From contig NZ_JANQOI010000175.1 of the NCBI RefSeq assembly GCF_028289705.1, positions 1 through 56,079 of the forward strand: DNA of 56,079 bases, in the 5' to 3' direction. Numbering within the stretch: the stretch's first letter is position 1; every line of letters starts with the position of its first letter. The notes under the pieces are model-generated. The model saw nothing but the letters and a program-made list of their open reading frames with translations. It did not search any database and was not told the origin of the DNA. The position numbers and the translations under genes were made by a program. Origin of the DNA: Pelagibius sp. GTDB lineage: Bacteria > Pseudomonadota > Alphaproteobacteria > Kiloniellales > Kiloniellaceae. This document shows, in pieces, positions 38,826-48,315 of this stretch.

Positions 38826-39017
38826 AGTCCTTCGTATTCTAACGGCATCGACCCGCTCCCCAGCTCGCGCCAGGGGCACATGAATGCCGGGCGAATTCGC
38901 CTTTGCTCTTTCAAGCCACAACGCCGCCGGGGCGCCTTCCAGTGCCTGGATTTAGATTGCATTAACGCCAAGCCCCTAAGCTCCGCTCACTCACGAAAGT
39001 CTTGTTGGGAGAGGGTC

Positions 39018-39800
39018 ATGGCGGCCACGAGCGCGCTCATTTCCGAAGAAGAAGTGGAACTCCAGATCGAAGGCGAGGCCCTGGACGAGGCCCGGGATCT
39101 GGTGACGAACCTCGAACTGCGCGTGCAGCAGGTGAAGAACGGCATCCTCGATCCCAAGGAAGCGGCCAAGACCCTGGCGATGGAATCGGCCAACCTGCGC
39201 ATGAAGGCGCGCTCGGTGAACTTGGTCGGTTTCGGCCCCCTCACCCACCAGCTCGACGAATACCTGAGCGAGATCGAGTCCGTCGAAACCAGGCACGCCG
39301 ACGACCTGATCGCCTTCGCCGACCGGATCGGCAGCCTGCTGGACGGCGAGACCGTGGAGGTCGAAGAGGTTTCCGCGGTGCTGCGCGAACTGCCGCAGCA
39401 GAGTTCCTTCAACGTCGAAGATGTCGAGATCACCGACACCATGGTGACGGTGATCATTCCGCAGCGCGCCGCCGCGAAGGTGGTGGGGCGCGAACTGGCG
39501 GCCTGCGGCTACCGCGTCTCCAGCGTCACCAACCCCATCGAGGCCCTGGAACTGATCCTCGAGACCAAGCCGGATCTGGTCATCACCTCCCAGGTGATGC
39601 CGCGGCTGAGCGGCGTCGACCTGGCCTGCGCGCTTTCGGCGATGCCGTCGACCCGCTCCATTCCCATCGCGCTGCTCACCAGCCTGGACCCCGACCATCC
39701 CGACCTGAAGTCCCTGCCGATGAACGTCGGTCTGATCCGCCGCGGCGCCCAGTTCGGCGACGACCTCGCCGACGTTCTGCAGCGCTTCAACATCACCTGA
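39018..39800 (+). CDS. Hpt-like plus receiver-like protein lacking phospho-acceptor residues
   Basis: The 260-residue product has a helical N-terminal half (about 15-125) that resembles an Hpt four-helix bundle and a C-terminal half (about 135-258) that resembles a CheY-type receiver. Neither carries the usual acceptor. Where Hpt has H-x-L-K-G the sequence is NLRMKARSVNLVGF with no His, and the receiver segment PDLVITSQVMPRLSG has Ser191 where the Asp should be. The acidic pocket is also missing (TVIIPQRA). It may act as a phosphate-independent adaptor. ATG 39018 follows GGGAGAGGG. It precedes the haemoglobin-cyclase pair by 190 bases. Confidence 0.72.
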   Translation: MAATSALISEEEVELQIEGEALDEARDLVTNLELRVQQVKNGILDPKEAAKTLAMESANLRMKARSVNLVGFGPLTHQLDEYLSEIESVETRHADDLIAFADRIGSLLDGETVEVEEVSAVLRELPQQSSFNVEDVEITDTMVTVIIPQRAAAKVVGRELAACGYRVSSVTNPIEALELILETKPDLVITSQVMPRLSGVDLACALSAMPSTRSIPIALLTSLDPDHPDLKSLPMNVGLIRRGAQFGDDLADVLQRFNIT

Positions 39801-39989
39801 TCGCCGGACCACCCGATCGCCGGGCGCGGGCCGAGAGGTCGCCCCTCAAAAACACGCCTAGATTGCATCCTACCCGTCGATCCTACAAGGCCGTGAGGAT
39901 CGCCGGGCAAGCCCTGGCCTATCGCCCCGCCGGAAATGCCGTGCTAGGCTAACGAGCCGCAGAAAACAAAAAAGGTCGAGGCGAGGGGG

Positions 39990-40352
39990 ATGAAGGCGAC
40001 GATGTTCGACCGCTACGGCGGCTTCGCCGTCGTGCACCGCGTGGTCTTGACATTCTACGACAAGATGCTCGATTCCGACATCGTCGGGCCCTACTTCGAC
40101 GAGATCGACATGCCGGCCCTGGTCGACCACCAGACCAAGTTCATCTCGCAGGTCATGGGCGGCCCGGCCAGCTACTCGAACGAGGTTCTGGAACAGGTCC
40201 ACCGCAACCTCGACATCAGCCTGGAAGCCTTCGATGAGATGGCGGATCTTCTGGAAGCGACCCTCAAAGAGTACGAATTCGAGCCCGCCGACATGCACCA
40301 GGTCATGAGCGAAATCAGAAGCCGCCGTTCCTTCATCGTCACCGATCAGTAG
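39990..40352 (+). CDS. Truncated haemoglobin (group I-like)
   Basis: The 120-residue product has the 2-on-2 globin pattern. Compared from memory with Mycobacterium GlbN, the distal TyrB10 is Y23 (TFYDKML), LeuE7 is L44 and GlnE11 is Q48 (LVDHQTKF), and the GGP loop at 57-59 is present. The proximal HisF8 is H71 (EQVHRNLDIS). A Tyr/Gln distal pair stabilises bound oxygen and supports NO reactions. GGCGAGGGGG gives a strong ribosome binding site. The adenylate cyclase gene begins 12 bases after the stop, so the globin may supply a haem sensor or protect the cyclase pathway. Confidence 0.88.
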   Translation: MKATMFDRYGGFAVVHRVVLTFYDKMLDSDIVGPYFDEIDMPALVDHQTKFISQVMGGPASYSNEVLEQVHRNLDISLEAFDEMADLLEATLKEYEFEPADMHQVMSEIRSRRSFIVTDQ

Positions 40353-40364
40353 CCCCGGCCGGCG

Positions 40365-41444
40365 ATGGACTTCGAGCTCGACGCCTTCAACAAGCTCTTG
40401 CTTGAAACCGTCGGTGTCGGGCTGATCATCGCAACCTATCCCGAACTTGACGTGCGGTTCCGAAATCAGCGGGTCGCAGACTGGTTCCCGGGTTTCAACG
40501 AGGAAGAAGGATCGCTCTGCGCGCGCCTCGAGGCCATCGACGAAAACGCCCTGCGCGCGAAGCTGGAAGCCGGCGGCAGCTATCAGACCACCATCGAGAC
40601 CAAGGTGCGCCGGCGCACCCACGTTCTCGCCCTGACCGCGACCCGCACGAGCTTCGCCAGCGAGCCCTGGGTCATCGTCGAGCTGCAGAACGACACCAAG
40701 GTGCGCGAGCTGGAATCGATGATCGACTCCTACGCCAAGATGGTCGAACGGCAGAACCGCCAGCTCAAGAAGGAGAAGGAACGGGCCGAGAAGCTGCTGC
40801 TCAACATCATGCCGGAGTCGGTCTACGAGGAACTGAAGACGTTCGGCGTGACGACGCCGCAACGCTACGACGAAGCCTCGATCCTGATGCTGGACTTCGT
40901 CGGCTTCACGCGGATCTCCGTCGAGCACGATCCCTCGACGGTGATCACCGAGCTGAACGACATCTTCACCTCCTTCGACCGCATCGCCGAGCACCAAGGC
41001 TGCGAGCGGATCAAGACCATCGGCGATGCCTATGTCGCGGTCGCGGGGCTGCCGGAGCCCTCCGCCGACCATGCCCAGGCCATCGCGCGGCTGGCGCTGA
41101 TGTGCGTGCGCTACCTGACGCGGCGCAACGAGACCCACAAGATCCAATGGCGCTGCCGCGTCGGCCTGGCGCCGGGGCCGGTGATCGGCTCCGTGGTCGG
41201 GATTCAGAAATACGTCTACGACATCTTCGGTCCCGGCGTGAACCTGGCCGCCAGGCTGGAAGCCCTGGCCGGTCCCATGGAGATCCTGATGGACGAAGGG
41301 ATGCACCGGAACCTGCGCACCCAGTTCCAGATAGAAGACCGCGGCGAGGCCGAGGTGCGCGGCTTCGGGCCGCAGCGCATCTACCGTCTGCTCGGGTCCG
41401 ACGACCTGGCGGTCTCCATGGAGCCCCTCAGCGCCATCGACTGA
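40365..41444 (+). CDS. PAS-like domain class III adenylate cyclase
   Basis: The 359-residue product has a PAS-like N-terminal domain (about 5-110), a signalling coiled coil (115-150, ending KLLLNIMPESVYEEL) and a class III catalytic domain (170-345). The two metal-binding aspartates are D177 (LDFVGFT) and D221 (IGDAY). The base-specifying pair is K217 and D286 (YDIFG), which indicates ATP rather than GTP, and N293 and R297 (VNLAARL) complete the site. No membrane helix is seen. It is predicted to be a soluble, homodimeric cAMP producer, translated from the same message as the truncated haemoglobin. Confidence 0.92.
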   Translation: MDFELDAFNKLLLETVGVGLIIATYPELDVRFRNQRVADWFPGFNEEEGSLCARLEAIDENALRAKLEAGGSYQTTIETKVRRRTHVLALTATRTSFASEPWVIVELQNDTKVRELESMIDSYAKMVERQNRQLKKEKERAEKLLLNIMPESVYEELKTFGVTTPQRYDEASILMLDFVGFTRISVEHDPSTVITELNDIFTSFDRIAEHQGCERIKTIGDAYVAVAGLPEPSADHAQAIARLALMCVRYLTRRNETHKIQWRCRVGLAPGPVIGSVVGIQKYVYDIFGPGVNLAARLEALAGPMEILMDEGMHRNLRTQFQIEDRGEAEVRGFGPQRIYRLLGSDDLAVSMEPLSAID

Positions 41445-43869: not shown

Positions 43870-46800
43870 ATGACGCTGCCTGCTTATGTCGGCCGCTACA
43901 GGGTAGACAATGAGATAGCGAGAGGCGGCTTCGCGACCGTCGTCCGGGCCTGGGATGAGGAACTTGAATCCTTCGTAGCGATCAAGATTCTTCATCCCAA
44001 TCTCGCCGACGACGAGGATATCCTGATGCGCTTTCTGGAGGAGGCCCGCCTCCTCCGACGCATTCGTTCGCCCAATGTCGTCACCGTGCACGACGTGGGC
44101 CGGCTGAACGACGGCCGGCCCTACTTCGTGATGGACTTCGCGGACCGCGCCACTCTGGCCGATCGCATTCGCCCGGGGGACGGGAACGGCCCCGATCCGC
44201 GCGATCTGACCGTTTTGATCGACGCCCTGGCCGACGGCCTGACGGCGATTCACGAGGCCGGCCTGGTGCATCGCGACGTCAAGCCGGCCAACATCCTGTT
44301 TCAGCTTGCCCGCCGGGCCCCCAGCGATCCCGACGCCACGGTGATCGGCGCGGAGGCCACGCCGCAGCGTCTGGTAACCGAGGACGAGCGCGTCCTGGTC
44401 GGCGACCTCGGCATCGCCAAGGACCTGGCCAAGCACGGCCCCTTGGCGACCATCATGGGCGGCACCCCGCTTTATGAAGCGCCGGAGCAGCGCGACGGCC
44501 TCCCCGAGATCACCCCCGCCGCCGACATCTATTCCGCCACCGCCCTGCTGTGGCACGTGCTGACCGCGGAGCGCCCGCCCAATGCCGAAGCCGTTCCCGG
44601 CCGCCTGCCCGGCCTGCCCGCCCACTGGCACACGGTGGTCGAGCAAGGCATGGCGCTGGACCCAGGGGCCCGCTTCACCACCGTCGAAGCCTGGCGCTCG
44701 GCCATTCACGACGTCCTCGCCCACGAGGTCACCACGATCGACGATGACCGCCCCACCGAGACCCGCGTCACGCCATCGACCGCCTGCCCCTACAAGGGTC
44801 TGGCCGCCTATCAGCCCGAAGACGCGGGCAATTTCTTCGGCCGCGAGGCCCTGATCGACGAGCTGGTGCGCCGGGTGCAGCTCGAGCGGGTGCTGGTGGT
44901 CGGCGGGCCGTCGGGCAGCGGCAAGTCCTCGCTGGTGCGCGCCGGGCTCATCCCCGCCTTGCGCGCCGGTGCCCTGCTCGGCAGCGAGTCCTGGCGGATC
45001 GCGCTGCTGACGCCGGGCCGCGACCCGCTGGCGGAGCTGCACCACCGTGTCGCCGCCAGCCTGCCGGATGGGAACCCGTCGGTGTCGATCGAAGACCTGC
45101 TGGCCCGGCCCACCATGGCCCGCCATCTCGGCGAGGCCGGCGACCCGCAGAACCCGCTGCTGCTGTGCATCGACCAGTTCGAGGAACTGTTCACCCTGGC
45201 GCCGGAGACCCAGCGCAGCGCCTTCATCACCGCGCTCTCCGCCATGACCGACCCGGCCGACAGCACGGTCCGGGTCGTCATCTCCGTGCGCGCGGATTTC
45301 TACGCCGCCTGCGCGACGGTGCCCTGGCTGGCCGAACGCATCACCGGCAATCAGGTGCTGGTGGGGCCGATGACCCGCTCGGACCTGCGCCGCGCGATCA
45401 GCGAACCGGCCCGCCGCGCCGGCCTCTACGTCGAGCGCAACCTCGTCGAAGCCATCATCGACGAGGCCGGCGAAGAAGCCGGATCGCTGCCGCTGATCGC
45501 CCATGCCCTGGTGGAGACCTGGGTGCGCCGCCAGGGCAACACCCTGACCGTCGACGGCTTTCGCGATGCCGGGGGCGTTGCCGGGGCGATCAGCCAGACC
45601 GCCGATGCCACCTATCAGAACACCTTCGGCCCGGCCGAGCGCGAGGCCACCAAACGGCTCTTCCTGCGGCTGGTGACCCCCGGCGAGGAGACCCCGGACA
45701 CCCGGCGGATCCTGGGACGCTCCGAGATCGACCACGACACCGACGCGGAGGTCATGCGGCGGGTGGTGGAACGCCTGACCGAGGTCCGGCTGCTGACCGT
45801 CGACGATACCAGCGTGCAGATCGCCCACGAGGCCCTGCTGCGCACCTGGCCGCGGCTGCGCGACTGGATCGAGGAAAGCCGCGACGACCTGCGCACCCGT
45901 CAGCGCATCGCCCGCGCCGCCGCCGAATGGGATGCGGCGGAGCGGGATGCGGATCTGCTCTACCGCGGCACGCCCCTGCTCTCCGCCCAGGACTGGATGA
46001 CCAAGAGCCCCGACCTCTTGGGCGAACTGGATCTGGCCTTCCTCGAGGCCTCGACAAGAGCCAAGGCCGAAGCCGAGGCCATCGACGCGGAGCGGCGCCA
46101 GCGGGCCCGGCGGGCGCGGCGCTTCGCCATCGCCGTGCTGTCCTTCCTCTCGGTCGGCGCCTCCGCCGCCTCGGTGGTGGCCTTCCTGGCCTGGCGCGAG
46201 GCCCGTCAGAACGAGGAGATGGCCGAGCGGGCGACCGCCGTGGCCACCGAACGCTTCGCCGGGGCCCTGGGCGCCGCCGCAAACGGCCTTGTGGAGTCCG
46301 ATCCGCTGCTCGCCCTCGCGCTCGCCGCCGAAGCGGTCGCCCGCGCGCCGGCGGCGAGCCCCGGCTACGATGCCCGCGCCGCCATGATCGCGGCACGCCG
46401 GGCCCTGGCCGGGGCAGGACCTTTCGTCGTCGGCAGCCCGATTTCGGCCGGCGACGCGCTGGCCATCGCCATGACGCCGGACGGCTCCCTCCTGGCGGCA
46501 GGGCGGCGCGACGGCTCCATCGAGTTGATCGACGCGACCCTGCGCCGGCCCATCGGGCCAAGCCTGCAGGGGCATGCCGGCGGGGTTCAGGACCTCGACT
46601 TCGCCCCGGACGGCCGCCGGCTGGTCTCGGTGGGCGACGACGGCGCGGTCCACTTCTGGAGCGTCGCCGACGGTCTGGGACGCCACGAACGCAGCCTCGG
46701 CCAGACGCCGGACATCCTCTGGGGCGTGCGCTTCGACCCGCAGGGAACGAGCCTGGCCACCGCCGGCGAAGACGGCACGGTCCGTCTCTGGGGCGCCAGC

Positions 46801-48315
46801 GAAGGCGCGGCGGAGCGCGCGCCTCTGGTAGACGTGGTACGCGACTTCCTGAGCGTTTCCTTCAGTCCCGACGGGCGTGCCCTGGTGGCCGGCACCGGCG
46901 ACGGCGCAATCTTCGCCTGGGCCCTGCCCTCGGCGAAACCGCTCTTCGAGCCCATCGGCGATGCCCACAGCAGCGATGTCTGGGAGCTGGAATTCAGCCC
47001 CTCGGGCGACCGCTTCGCCACGGCCAGCAGCGATGCGACCGCCGTGATGTTCGACTACCCAAGCGGCCGCATCCTGGGCCCGGCCTTCGCCGACGCCGGC
47101 CCGATCAACGCGGTCGCCTTTTCGCCGGACGGCGAACTGCTGTTCGGCGGCGGATTGGACGGTGCCCTGCACCTCTGGCATGTGGACCGCGAACGCCTGC
47201 TCGCCTCGGCGCCCGGCGGACACAGCCAGGCCATCGCCGATATCGAGGTGAGCCAGGACGGTCGGCGCCTCGCCACCCTTGGCCGCGACCAGTTGATCCG
47301 CCTGTGGAGCATGGGCAGCAGCCATGCTCTGGCCCAGACGCGCAGCGTGCCGGGCGAGGCGGCGAAGGGGCTGGCCATCAGCCCCGACGGTCTGCGCCTG
47401 GCGGCGGGCGACAACGACGGGACCATTCAGGTCTGGCGTCCGGACGGGCGCAGCAGCCCCCAGACCCTGACCGGCCACGGCCACCAGGTCTGGGCCCTGG
47501 CTTTTTCGCCGGACGGGGCGCTGCTGGCCTCCGGCGACCGCAGCGGCGAGGTGCGCCTCTGGGACCTGGGCGACGGGCGGCTGCTCCGGTCTTTCGCCGC
47601 TCAGCAGGGGGCCATCTGGTCGCTGCTGTTCACCGCCGAGGGAAGCCGGCTGGTGACCGCCAGCGACGCCGGCGTCGGGCTTTGGAACGTCGAGACGGCC
47701 AGCGCCGAAGCCACCCTGGACCACCCGGCGGGGCGCATAACCCGCGCGGCGCTGTCGCCGGACGGCGCGTTGCTGGCCACGGTGGCGACCGACGGCCGGG
47801 TCAGGCTCTGGGATCTGGAGTCCGCCAGCGTGACACGGGAACTGGCGGCGGAGGACGATGTGGTCTGGAGCGTGGCCTTCAGCCCCGACGGACGGCATTT
47901 GGCGACGGCCTCGAGCGACGAAGTCGTGGCGCTCTGGGATGTCGAGAGCGGCCAGCGGACCGGGGTCCTGACCGGCCACAGCGGCGGGGCCACCGACCTC
48001 GCCTATCTCGCCGACGGTGTCACCCTGGCGGTCACCGACCGCAGCGGCCAGCTCCATCTCTGGGACGCGCCGACGGGCCGCCGGCTGGCCGCGAGCGCGC
48101 AGGGCCATCAGGGGGCGAGCTGGCGGATCGCCGTCCATCCCGATGGCGAGCGCTTCGCCACCAGCGGCGACGATGGTCAGGTGCAGCTGTGGAACCAGCT
48201 CAGCCTCACCCGCGCCTGCGCGATCAGCCGGCCGGCCTTCGACCGCAACCGCCGGGATCAGTACCTCGGCCTCGGTGAAGACCCCGCGGCCTGCCAGGCT
48301 CCTTTCGACCGATAG
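43870..48315 (+). CDS. Ser/Thr kinase - nSTAND NTPase - TM - WD40 membrane protein
   Basis: The 1481-residue product combines four parts. Residues about 8-285 are a Hanks-type kinase: ARGGFATVV, VAIK with K39, HRDVKPANIL at 134-143, DLG at 179-181 and APE at 204-206, with about 20 extra residues between the last two loops. Residues about 310-700 are an nSTAND1 NTPase domain (Walker A GGPSGSGKSS near 346; Walker B LLLCIDQFEELF near 430). A membrane helix follows at 752-775 after RARRARR, so the N-terminus should be cytoplasmic. About fourteen WD40 repeats (820-1470; VRLWD-type ends) make two seven-blade propellers that would face the periplasm. It lies between a secreted protein gene and an NTF2-like gene. 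Confidence 0.88.
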   Translation: MTLPAYVGRYRVDNEIARGGFATVVRAWDEELESFVAIKILHPNLADDEDILMRFLEEARLLRRIRSPNVVTVHDVGRLNDGRPYFVMDFADRATLADRIRPGDGNGPDPRDLTVLIDALADGLTAIHEAGLVHRDVKPANILFQLARRAPSDPDATVIGAEATPQRLVTEDERVLVGDLGIAKDLAKHGPLATIMGGTPLYEAPEQRDGLPEITPAADIYSATALLWHVLTAERPPNAEAVPGRLPGLPAHWHTVVEQGMALDPGARFTTVEAWRSAIHDVLAHEVTTIDDDRPTETRVTPSTACPYKGLAAYQPEDAGNFFGREALIDELVRRVQLERVLVVGGPSGSGKSSLVRAGLIPALRAGALLGSESWRIALLTPGRDPLAELHHRVAASLPDGNPSVSIEDLLARPTMARHLGEAGDPQNPLLLCIDQFEELFTLAPETQRSAFITALSAMTDPADSTVRVVISVRADFYAACATVPWLAERITGNQVLVGPMTRSDLRRAISEPARRAGLYVERNLVEAIIDEAGEEAGSLPLIAHALVETWVRRQGNTLTVDGFRDAGGVAGAISQTADATYQNTFGPAEREATKRLFLRLVTPGEETPDTRRILGRSEIDHDTDAEVMRRVVERLTEVRLLTVDDTSVQIAHEALLRTWPRLRDWIEESRDDLRTRQRIARAAAEWDAAERDADLLYRGTPLLSAQDWMTKSPDLLGELDLAFLEASTRAKAEAEAIDAERRQRARRARRFAIAVLSFLSVGASAASVVAFLAWREARQNEEMAERATAVATERFAGALGAAANGLVESDPLLALALAAEAVARAPAASPGYDARAAMIAARRALAGAGPFVVGSPISAGDALAIAMTPDGSLLAAGRRDGSIELIDATLRRPIGPSLQGHAGGVQDLDFAPDGRRLVSVGDDGAVHFWSVADGLGRHERSLGQTPDILWGVRFDPQGTSLATAGEDGTVRLWGASEGAAERAPLVDVVRDFLSVSFSPDGRALVAGTGDGAIFAWALPSAKPLFEPIGDAHSSDVWELEFSPSGDRFATASSDATAVMFDYPSGRILGPAFADAGPINAVAFSPDGELLFGGGLDGALHLWHVDRERLLASAPGGHSQAIADIEVSQDGRRLATLGRDQLIRLWSMGSSHALAQTRSVPGEAAKGLAISPDGLRLAAGDNDGTIQVWRPDGRSSPQTLTGHGHQVWALAFSPDGALLASGDRSGEVRLWDLGDGRLLRSFAAQQGAIWSLLFTAEGSRLVTASDAGVGLWNVETASAEATLDHPAGRITRAALSPDGALLATVATDGRVRLWDLESASVTRELAAEDDVVWSVAFSPDGRHLATASSDEVVALWDVESGQRTGVLTGHSGGATDLAYLADGVTLAVTDRSGQLHLWDAPTGRRLAASAQGHQGASWRIAVHPDGERFATSGDDGQVQLWNQLSLTRACAISRPAFDRNRRDQYLGLGEDPAACQAPFDR

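Follow-up and report, generated by a model that had tools for sequence, protein, structure and literature searches.

Results

A truncated haemoglobin gene directly precedes a cyclase gene

The window, a 56,079-nt stretch of DNA from Pelagibius sp., carries a globin gene followed by a cyclase gene on the same strand (Table 1). A sequence-only reading of this DNA had placed the two genes 12 bases apart, and the coordinates of the open reading frames agree. To describe the pair as a family, we extracted 90 pairs from the loci found, kept the 86 that fell within length limits, and removed near-copies to leave 71. The globin precedes the cyclase in all 90 loci of the redundant set. Among the 71 non-redundant pairs, with start codons picked by script, the two genes overlap in 16, are 0-34 nt apart in 53, and are separated by 65 and 134 nt in the other 2.

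The gap upstream of the globin gene would probably hold the pair's own promoter; no sigma-70-like or terminator-like match falls inside it. In the 250 bp 5' of the globin gene in the 71 loci, we found 0 strict FNR boxes and 0 CRP boxes, and 5 FNR-like boxes, compared with a mean of 3.0 and a maximum of 6 in shuffled sequences. As these counts are unremarkable, we see no shared regulator. Between a HAMP kinase gene and the globin gene, at 39015-39800, lies a gene whose product has a receiver domain at its C-terminus and, ahead of it, a helical part without an assigned family. Looked for across the loci of the pair, a protein of this kind was found at the window's own locus only. We considered the response-regulator, kinase and receiver genes upstream as part of the unit and rejected them, as they are not conserved beside the pair. 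Downstream, a 1481-aa open reading frame (43870-48315) appears by eye to encode a protein kinase followed by WD40-like repeats.

Table 1. Features of the globin-cyclase locus and of loci in the same or other genomes discussed in the text. Coordinates without a locus prefix refer to the window.
Feature	Coordinates	Strand	Details
Gap 5' of globin gene	39801..39989	+	189 bp, without a chosen ORF
Globin gene	39990..40352	+	ATG start, TAG stop, 120 aa; ORF call
Tyr23 codon	40056..40058	+	distal Tyr (B10); 71/71
E-helix signature D46-H47-Q48-T49-K50-F51	40125..40142	+	Q48 taken as distal Gln, E11
His71 codon	40200..40202	+	proximal haem ligand; 71/71
Arg112 codon	40323..40325	+	near globin C-terminus; 67/71 paired
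Spacer, globin stop to cyclase start	40353..40364	+	12 nt
Cyclase gene	40365..41444	+	ATG start, TGA stop, 359 aa; ORF call
Predicted PAS domain	40419..40691	+	residues 19-109; AlphaFold2 secondary structure
Long signalling helix	40695..40808	+	residues 111-148; AlphaFold2
Catalytic domain	40857..41390	+	presumed metal D177/D221, substrate K217/D286, transition-state N293/R297
Stand-alone H-NOX gene, then PAS histidine kinase gene	L169:60-1983	-	contig C177 of the window's genome
CheA-type kinases with truncated globin	L135:1060-3360; L138:1051-3351; L139:1066-2427		also, by eye, L137 and L143
Cyclic-nucleotide-binding protein	L002:4551-4922; also L099/L108, L100/L107		PF00027 E 5.8e-25

The paired globins are group 1 truncated haemoglobins with a signature of their own

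The sequence-only reading had classed the globin as a stand-alone, group I-like truncated haemoglobin (trHb), and database comparison bears this out. The protein matches Pfam Bac_globin at E 4.8e-14 (53 bits against a cut-off of 21), as do 56/56 members of its family. In a comparison with the PDB that covered groups 1 and 2, its best matches were group 1 truncated haemoglobins, from E 2.9e-11 (3aq5) to about 1e-6, with group 2 HbO far weaker (E 5.8e-4 or weaker; 1ngk at E 7.1e-4). A profile of the globin family again found group 1 proteins, with 3aq5 best at E 2.4e-24. The window's globin is the sole Bac_globin of its genome.

The haem-pocket residues named from the sequence, Y23, Q48 and H71, are where they had been placed, and each is present in 71/71 non-redundant pairs. 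In printed alignments with two Tetrahymena variants, Q48 aligns with the residue changed in 3aq9 and L44 with the residue changed in 3aq8, positions that we take to be E11 and E7, respectively. By these alignments, the distal pair is Tyr-B10/Gln-E11 and the residue at E7 is variable (31 Leu, 21 Met, 12 Ile and 7 Gln across the 71 pairs). The conserved proximal His and the group 1 sequence suggest that the globin binds haem, and the Tyr-B10/Gln-E11 pocket makes O2 the most likely ligand. Such a Tyr/Gln pocket is typical of O2-stabilising truncated haemoglobins; it also resembles that of Mycobacterium tuberculosis HbN, an NO dioxygenase.

Conservation in the paired globins extends beyond the pocket. 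Along the E helix, D46, H47, Q48, K50 and F51 are each found in 71/71 pairs, and position 49 is Thr in 69 and Ser in 2. The full DHQTKF motif occurs in 0 of 23 unpaired truncated globins, and Arg112 is present in 67/71 paired versus 0/23 unpaired globins. Judging from helix spacing, D46 and K50 would face outward on the E helix, with Y23 and Q48 in the haem pocket. One paired globin, from Novosphingobium, reads DHQTQF and keeps the Arg; with Gln at position 50 in a paired protein, K50 is not essential. An orphan globin described below (G039) reads DHQAQF and has Lys at the Arg112 position.

The cyclase combines a predicted PAS domain, a predicted long helix and a complete catalytic site

The downstream protein had been read as a soluble, PAS-type class III cyclase. 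Consistent with this, it matches Guanylate_cyc (PF00211) at E 5e-46 over residues 165-342, a domain matched in 56/56 members of the cyclase family, and an AlphaFold2 model built with 56 relatives (mean pLDDT 86.8, pTM 0.55) contains a PAS fold. The order in the model is an N-cap helix (residues 2-15), the PAS domain, a 38-residue helix, a short helix and the catalytic domain. PAS_8 was found in 29 of the 56 members at E<=1; the predicted PAS domain has pLDDT mostly above 90, and N34, W40 and R84 are near-invariant in it. Across the 71 pairs, cyclase residues 1-116 contain no invariant His and no His column above 21/71, which disfavours the PAS domain as a haem holder in its own right; one column is mostly Cys (55/71), where the window has Leu. 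In the long helix, M119, S122, Y123, E128 and E142 are invariant across the 56 members.

The six residues that we take to serve metal binding, substrate recognition and transition-state stabilisation are all canonical in the window's cyclase. D177, D221 and D286 are each found in 71/71 pairs, N293 in 64/71 and R297 in 69/71, and the K217 column holds 64 Lys and 7 Arg; the substrate residues K217 and D286 are thus where the sequence-only reading had put them. As catalytic residues are kept throughout the family, the enzyme is expected to be active, and as the substrate pair is Lys/Asp, a preference for ATP is expected. By this residue signature the product would be cAMP.

In a Foldseek comparison of the cyclase model, the bacterial cyclase 5o5k ranked first, on the catalytic part. 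Of the 50 matches listed, 17 align over more than 300 columns, and every one of these is a chain of human or Manduca soluble guanylate cyclase. These alignments cover 365-402 columns at E 2.4e-20 to 1.4e-15 (best 2.4e-20 over 375 columns), with TM about 0.5 (of the query) and rmsd of 17-26 Å, and the TM to guanylate cyclase is no higher than to its catalytic domain alone. From the TM and the large rmsd, the domains match in order, with no single rigid superposition. Pfam finds no HNOB (H-NOX) domain in the cyclase. HNOBA reaches 17.6 bits against a cut-off of 23.4 in the window's cyclase, on the helix part only; it appears at E<=1 in 56/56 family members, and the helix of a GAF-cyclase also matches it. 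We rejected membership of the PAS domain in HNOBA, as the score is below the cut-off and the match reports the helix. Our analysis suggests that the cyclase would work like soluble guanylate cyclase with an external sensor, yet it is not a member of that family.

A complex between globin and cyclase, as the sequence-only reading had envisaged, did not emerge from modelling: a read-through AlphaFold2 model of the two proteins as one chain, built from few sequences, had pTM 0.49 compared with 0.55 for the cyclase alone, and it showed no confident docking. The globin part was modelled at pLDDT about 89-98 per block. Such a model is a weak test of docking, as it gives no inter-chain error.

The full-length cyclase is found with the globin

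A scan of genome contigs with the globin as seed gave 61 loci with globin identities of 43-75%, one of them (L041) cut by a contig end, and a cyclase relative lies directly 3' of the globin in 61/61. Because a globin-seeded search could favour close relatives, we added a cyclase-seeded search of 385 genomes of the window's class. This gave 17 full-length relatives at E<=1e-85, the window included; the next match, at E 5e-46, covered the catalytic domain alone. A globin lies upstream in 17/17 of the full-length relatives, counting one, L078, where the globin is partial and stop codons interrupt the cyclase frame, versus 0/13 of the catalytic-only relatives whose loci were fetched; the other catalytic-only matches were compared by coordinates alone. 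One of these other matches (in G342) adjoins a truncated globin of another kind.

The PAS region follows the same pattern. At E<=5e-22, a profile of it (A3) recovered exactly the 17 genomes with the full-length cyclase; beyond these it matched only 3 genomes, at E 1e-8 to 3e-6, suggesting that the PAS domain of this cyclase hardly exists without the globin. On the globin side, a close orphan (G039, E 2.3e-43) is encoded in a genome without the cyclase at E<=1e-30, where its neighbour reads by eye as a Rieske-type oxygenase. The globin fold of this clade is thus able to exist on its own. The globin profile also found more distant unpaired globins (G310, G093). A short PAS-like open reading frame after the G310 globin was tried as a cyclase N-terminus and rejected: it scored -1.1 bits against a shuffled best of 8.5, and it had no Pfam match. 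None of the 62 loci inspected contains a globin-cyclase fusion; in two that a script had flagged as fused (L008, L012), the cyclase frame is merely open upstream and differs from the frame of the globin.

The two genes share a history across several lineages

Trees of the 71 pairs agree closely. Distances in the globin and cyclase trees correlate with r 0.914, compared with a maximum of 0.21 in 1000 permutations, and the cyclase tree divides 42/29 (support 100/100), a division that the globin tree reproduces exactly (support 89). Common descent of the species would by itself yield part of this agreement. Within the window's own family, however, three genomes (G335, G744, G745) carry pairs that group with Rhizobiaceae-type pairs in both trees, which points to joint transfer of the two genes.

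The pair has a scattered distribution and is not common, as 398 genomes of the phylum gave only 3 full-length cyclase matches, the window and two of the same class. Within the window's family, 8 of 23 genomes have the cyclase, 7 of them beside a Bac_globin and the eighth with globin and cyclase at the termini of two contigs; the cyclase is missing from the remaining 15, several of which have other truncated globins. Alphaproteobacterial loci with the pair come from Pelagibius, Oceanibacterium, Sneathiella, Ruegeria and other Roseobacter relatives, and Rhizobiaceae and their relatives, and gammaproteobacterial ones from the Oceanospirillaceae Marinobacterium and Motiliproteus. The pair is thus not confined to one close lineage but spans several orders of Alphaproteobacteria as well as Oceanospirillaceae. 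Two metagenome-assembled genomes with the pair, labelled Betaproteobacteria (L018) and Polyangiaceae (L004), may both be mislabelled; the latter falls among Kiloniellaceae in the tree. Plasmid pLA3 of Novosphingobium pentaromativorans also holds the pair, annotated as 'group 1 truncated hemoglobin' and 'adenylate/guanylate cyclase domain-containing protein'. Named loci overlap the other genome sets (the globins of L020 and L072 are the same), and counts from separate searches are not additive.

One large clade has a further neighbour. Searching with annotated Novosphingobium neighbours, we found that 32/36 non-redundant loci of clade A also encode a soluble PAS-HisKA-HATPase-REC kinase, in either orientation and mostly accompanied by an OmpR-like regulator. 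The kinase is beside the pair in 0/17 non-redundant loci of clade B, to which the window belongs. In Pelagibius relatives, a gene for a stand-alone cyclic-nucleotide-binding protein lies 78 nt upstream of the globin gene (L002; also G758 and G763). The copies in L002 and G758 are identical and may come from one species; the window's genome has only distant relatives of this protein, located elsewhere, the best at 30% identity.

Truncated globins accompany other signalling proteins in related genomes

Several alphaproteobacterial genomes encode CheA-type kinases with an inserted truncated globin, in the order Hpt, Bac_globin, dimerisation domain (Table 1); HATPase and CheW follow where the stretch is long enough. 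The literature searched for globin-CheA proteins returned only unrelated papers. At L151:3360-6956, a 1198-aa CheA-like protein has two truncated globin stretches, three CheW stretches and a receiver domain. In G342, which also holds the main globin-cyclase pair, a second, different truncated globin is encoded 14 nt upstream of a GAF-helix-cyclase (L164:1505-3249, minus strand), a possible independent origin of a globin-cyclase pair. A cyclase related to it, in G041, has no such globin among the listed open reading frames.

Discussion

Collectively, our data favour a model in which globin and cyclase together make up a haem-based adenylate cyclase split over two chains, the globin acting in trans as its sensor subunit; we put the probability of this at about 0.6. 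Four observations carry it: the obligate adjacency, the matching trees, the near confinement of the PAS region to pairs, and a globin signature limited to paired proteins. The haem ligand and all catalytic residues are kept, the PAS domain shows no invariant His with which to hold haem, the longest of the listed fold matches are to soluble guanylate cyclase, and the CheA kinases with truncated globins and the globin next to a GAF-cyclase provide precedents in related genomes. The split gas sensor that the sequence-only reading had proposed is therefore the best-supported reading, with adjacency seen in both search directions, although the docking that it implies was not recovered with confidence. 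Further points against it are that no fusion was seen in the 62 loci, that the globin of G039 is an orphan, that one pair has Gln at position 50, and that the whole-length match to guanylate cyclase is no rigid superposition.

In this model, the globin would bind haem and then, most likely, O2. Docking would be to the cyclase's PAS domain, with the outward side of the globin E helix (D46, K50) and the C-terminal tail of the globin (R112) as the probable contact surface. Since metal, substrate and transition-state residues are all present in each chain, the cyclase would presumably work as a homodimer. The PAS domain and the signalling helix would move with the ligand state of the globin, and this would fix how far apart the two catalytic domains lie, by analogy with soluble guanylate cyclase, where H-NOX does this job within the same chain. 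Expression from one mRNA, with genes that overlap or nearly touch, would supply globin and cyclase in matched amounts, and the output, going by the residue signature, would be cAMP.

The same split architecture could serve another stimulus, with the globin reporting peroxide or haem redox state to the cyclase. Near the 61 loci are OsmC-like genes in 11 and flavoprotein genes in 12, and on pLA3 (L162) the order is OsmC-FAD-FAD-globin-cyclase-HK-RR, neighbours that would fit a redox role and to that extent count against the gas-sensor model. They occur, however, in a minority of loci and in 0/5 Pelagibius-type loci (L002-L005 and the window), and the Tyr/Gln pocket is of the kind that stabilises O2, so we regard redox sensing as unlikely. 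Peroxidase activity is described for a truncated haemoglobin of Roseobacter denitrificans in PMC4319818, which names no cyclase; that protein is of group II (glbO), and we rejected it as a member of the present family.

A further alternative is that the two proteins make no contact, the globin being an NO dioxygenase or O2/NO scavenger that protects the cyclase or is only co-regulated with it. The HbN-like pocket, the absence of fusions in the 62 loci and the lack of a docking signal would all suit such a role. A scavenger, however, has no need for strict co-inheritance with one PAS-cyclase (17/17 versus 0/13), nor for matching trees or a PAS region almost confined to pairs, and no NOR, NOS or flavohaemoglobin was noticed among the sampled neighbours scanned with Pfam; we consider this improbable. 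That the PAS domain senses a small ligand of its own, such as haem or O2, which the globin supplies or removes, seems very unlikely, for although the model of the domain is highly confident and N34, W40 and R84 are near-invariant in it, no His or Cys in residues 1-116 is invariant, as would be expected of a site for haem or a flavin adduct.

The split adenylate cyclase that we favour can be set beside several known systems. Soluble guanylate cyclase has the order of PAS, long helix and cyclase that is predicted for our protein, with a haem gas sensor feeding this core; here, the putative sensor is a globin on a separate chain, the substrate residues are of adenylate type, and there is no H-NOX. 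Stand-alone bacterial H-NOX proteins resemble our pair in layout, with the gene for a small haem protein directly before that for a PAS-containing effector, but a globin fold takes the place of H-NOX here and a cyclase that of the kinase. The window's genome itself holds such an H-NOX and PAS-kinase pair (Table 1), so the cell already uses the layout of a small haem protein with a separate enzyme.

In globin-coupled sensors of the type of Leishmania HemAC-Lm, a globin is the O2 sensor of a signalling enzyme, and this longer, sensor-type globin lies in the same chain as the enzyme. HemAC-Lm is named as an O2-sensing adenylate cyclase in PMC12755159. Our globin, in contrast, is a truncated 2/2 globin on a separate chain, with no fusion in 62 loci. 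With M. tuberculosis HbN and Tetrahymena trHb it shares the sequence family, the proximal His, Tyr-B10 and Gln-E11, but differs in its strict genetic partner, the DHQTKF motif and the conserved C-terminal Arg. The CheA proteins likewise use a truncated haemoglobin as a signalling-protein domain in related bacteria, although there it is fused, and to a chemotaxis-type kinase.

We found no description of the globin-cyclase pair in the open-access literature searched, which covers subscription journals little; as far as their accessible text goes, neither PMC1592074 nor PMC12755159 is about it. Haem-controlled nucleotide cyclases are known as a kind; what is new, as far as we searched, is the sensor fold and the split.

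A broader formulation, to which we give even odds, is that the pair is a two-chain globin counterpart of soluble guanylate cyclase, in which a truncated haemoglobin replaces H-NOX as the trans-acting O2 sensor of a PAS-helix adenylate cyclase. The pair would spread between bacteria as a unit; in one large clade, a soluble PAS hybrid histidine kinase and a response regulator would be linked to it as well, so that gas, cAMP and phosphorelay signals would come together at a single locus.

For most bacterial truncated haemoglobins, the job is unsettled. In the subfamily described here, the constant presence of one enzyme partner opens the way to a direct test of function. Should the globin control the cyclase, it would be a second haem fold, in the form of a detachable subunit, that couples gas to cyclic nucleotides, and it would represent convergence with the animal NO receptor. 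The pair would then also provide a small two-gene tool for oxygen-controlled cAMP.
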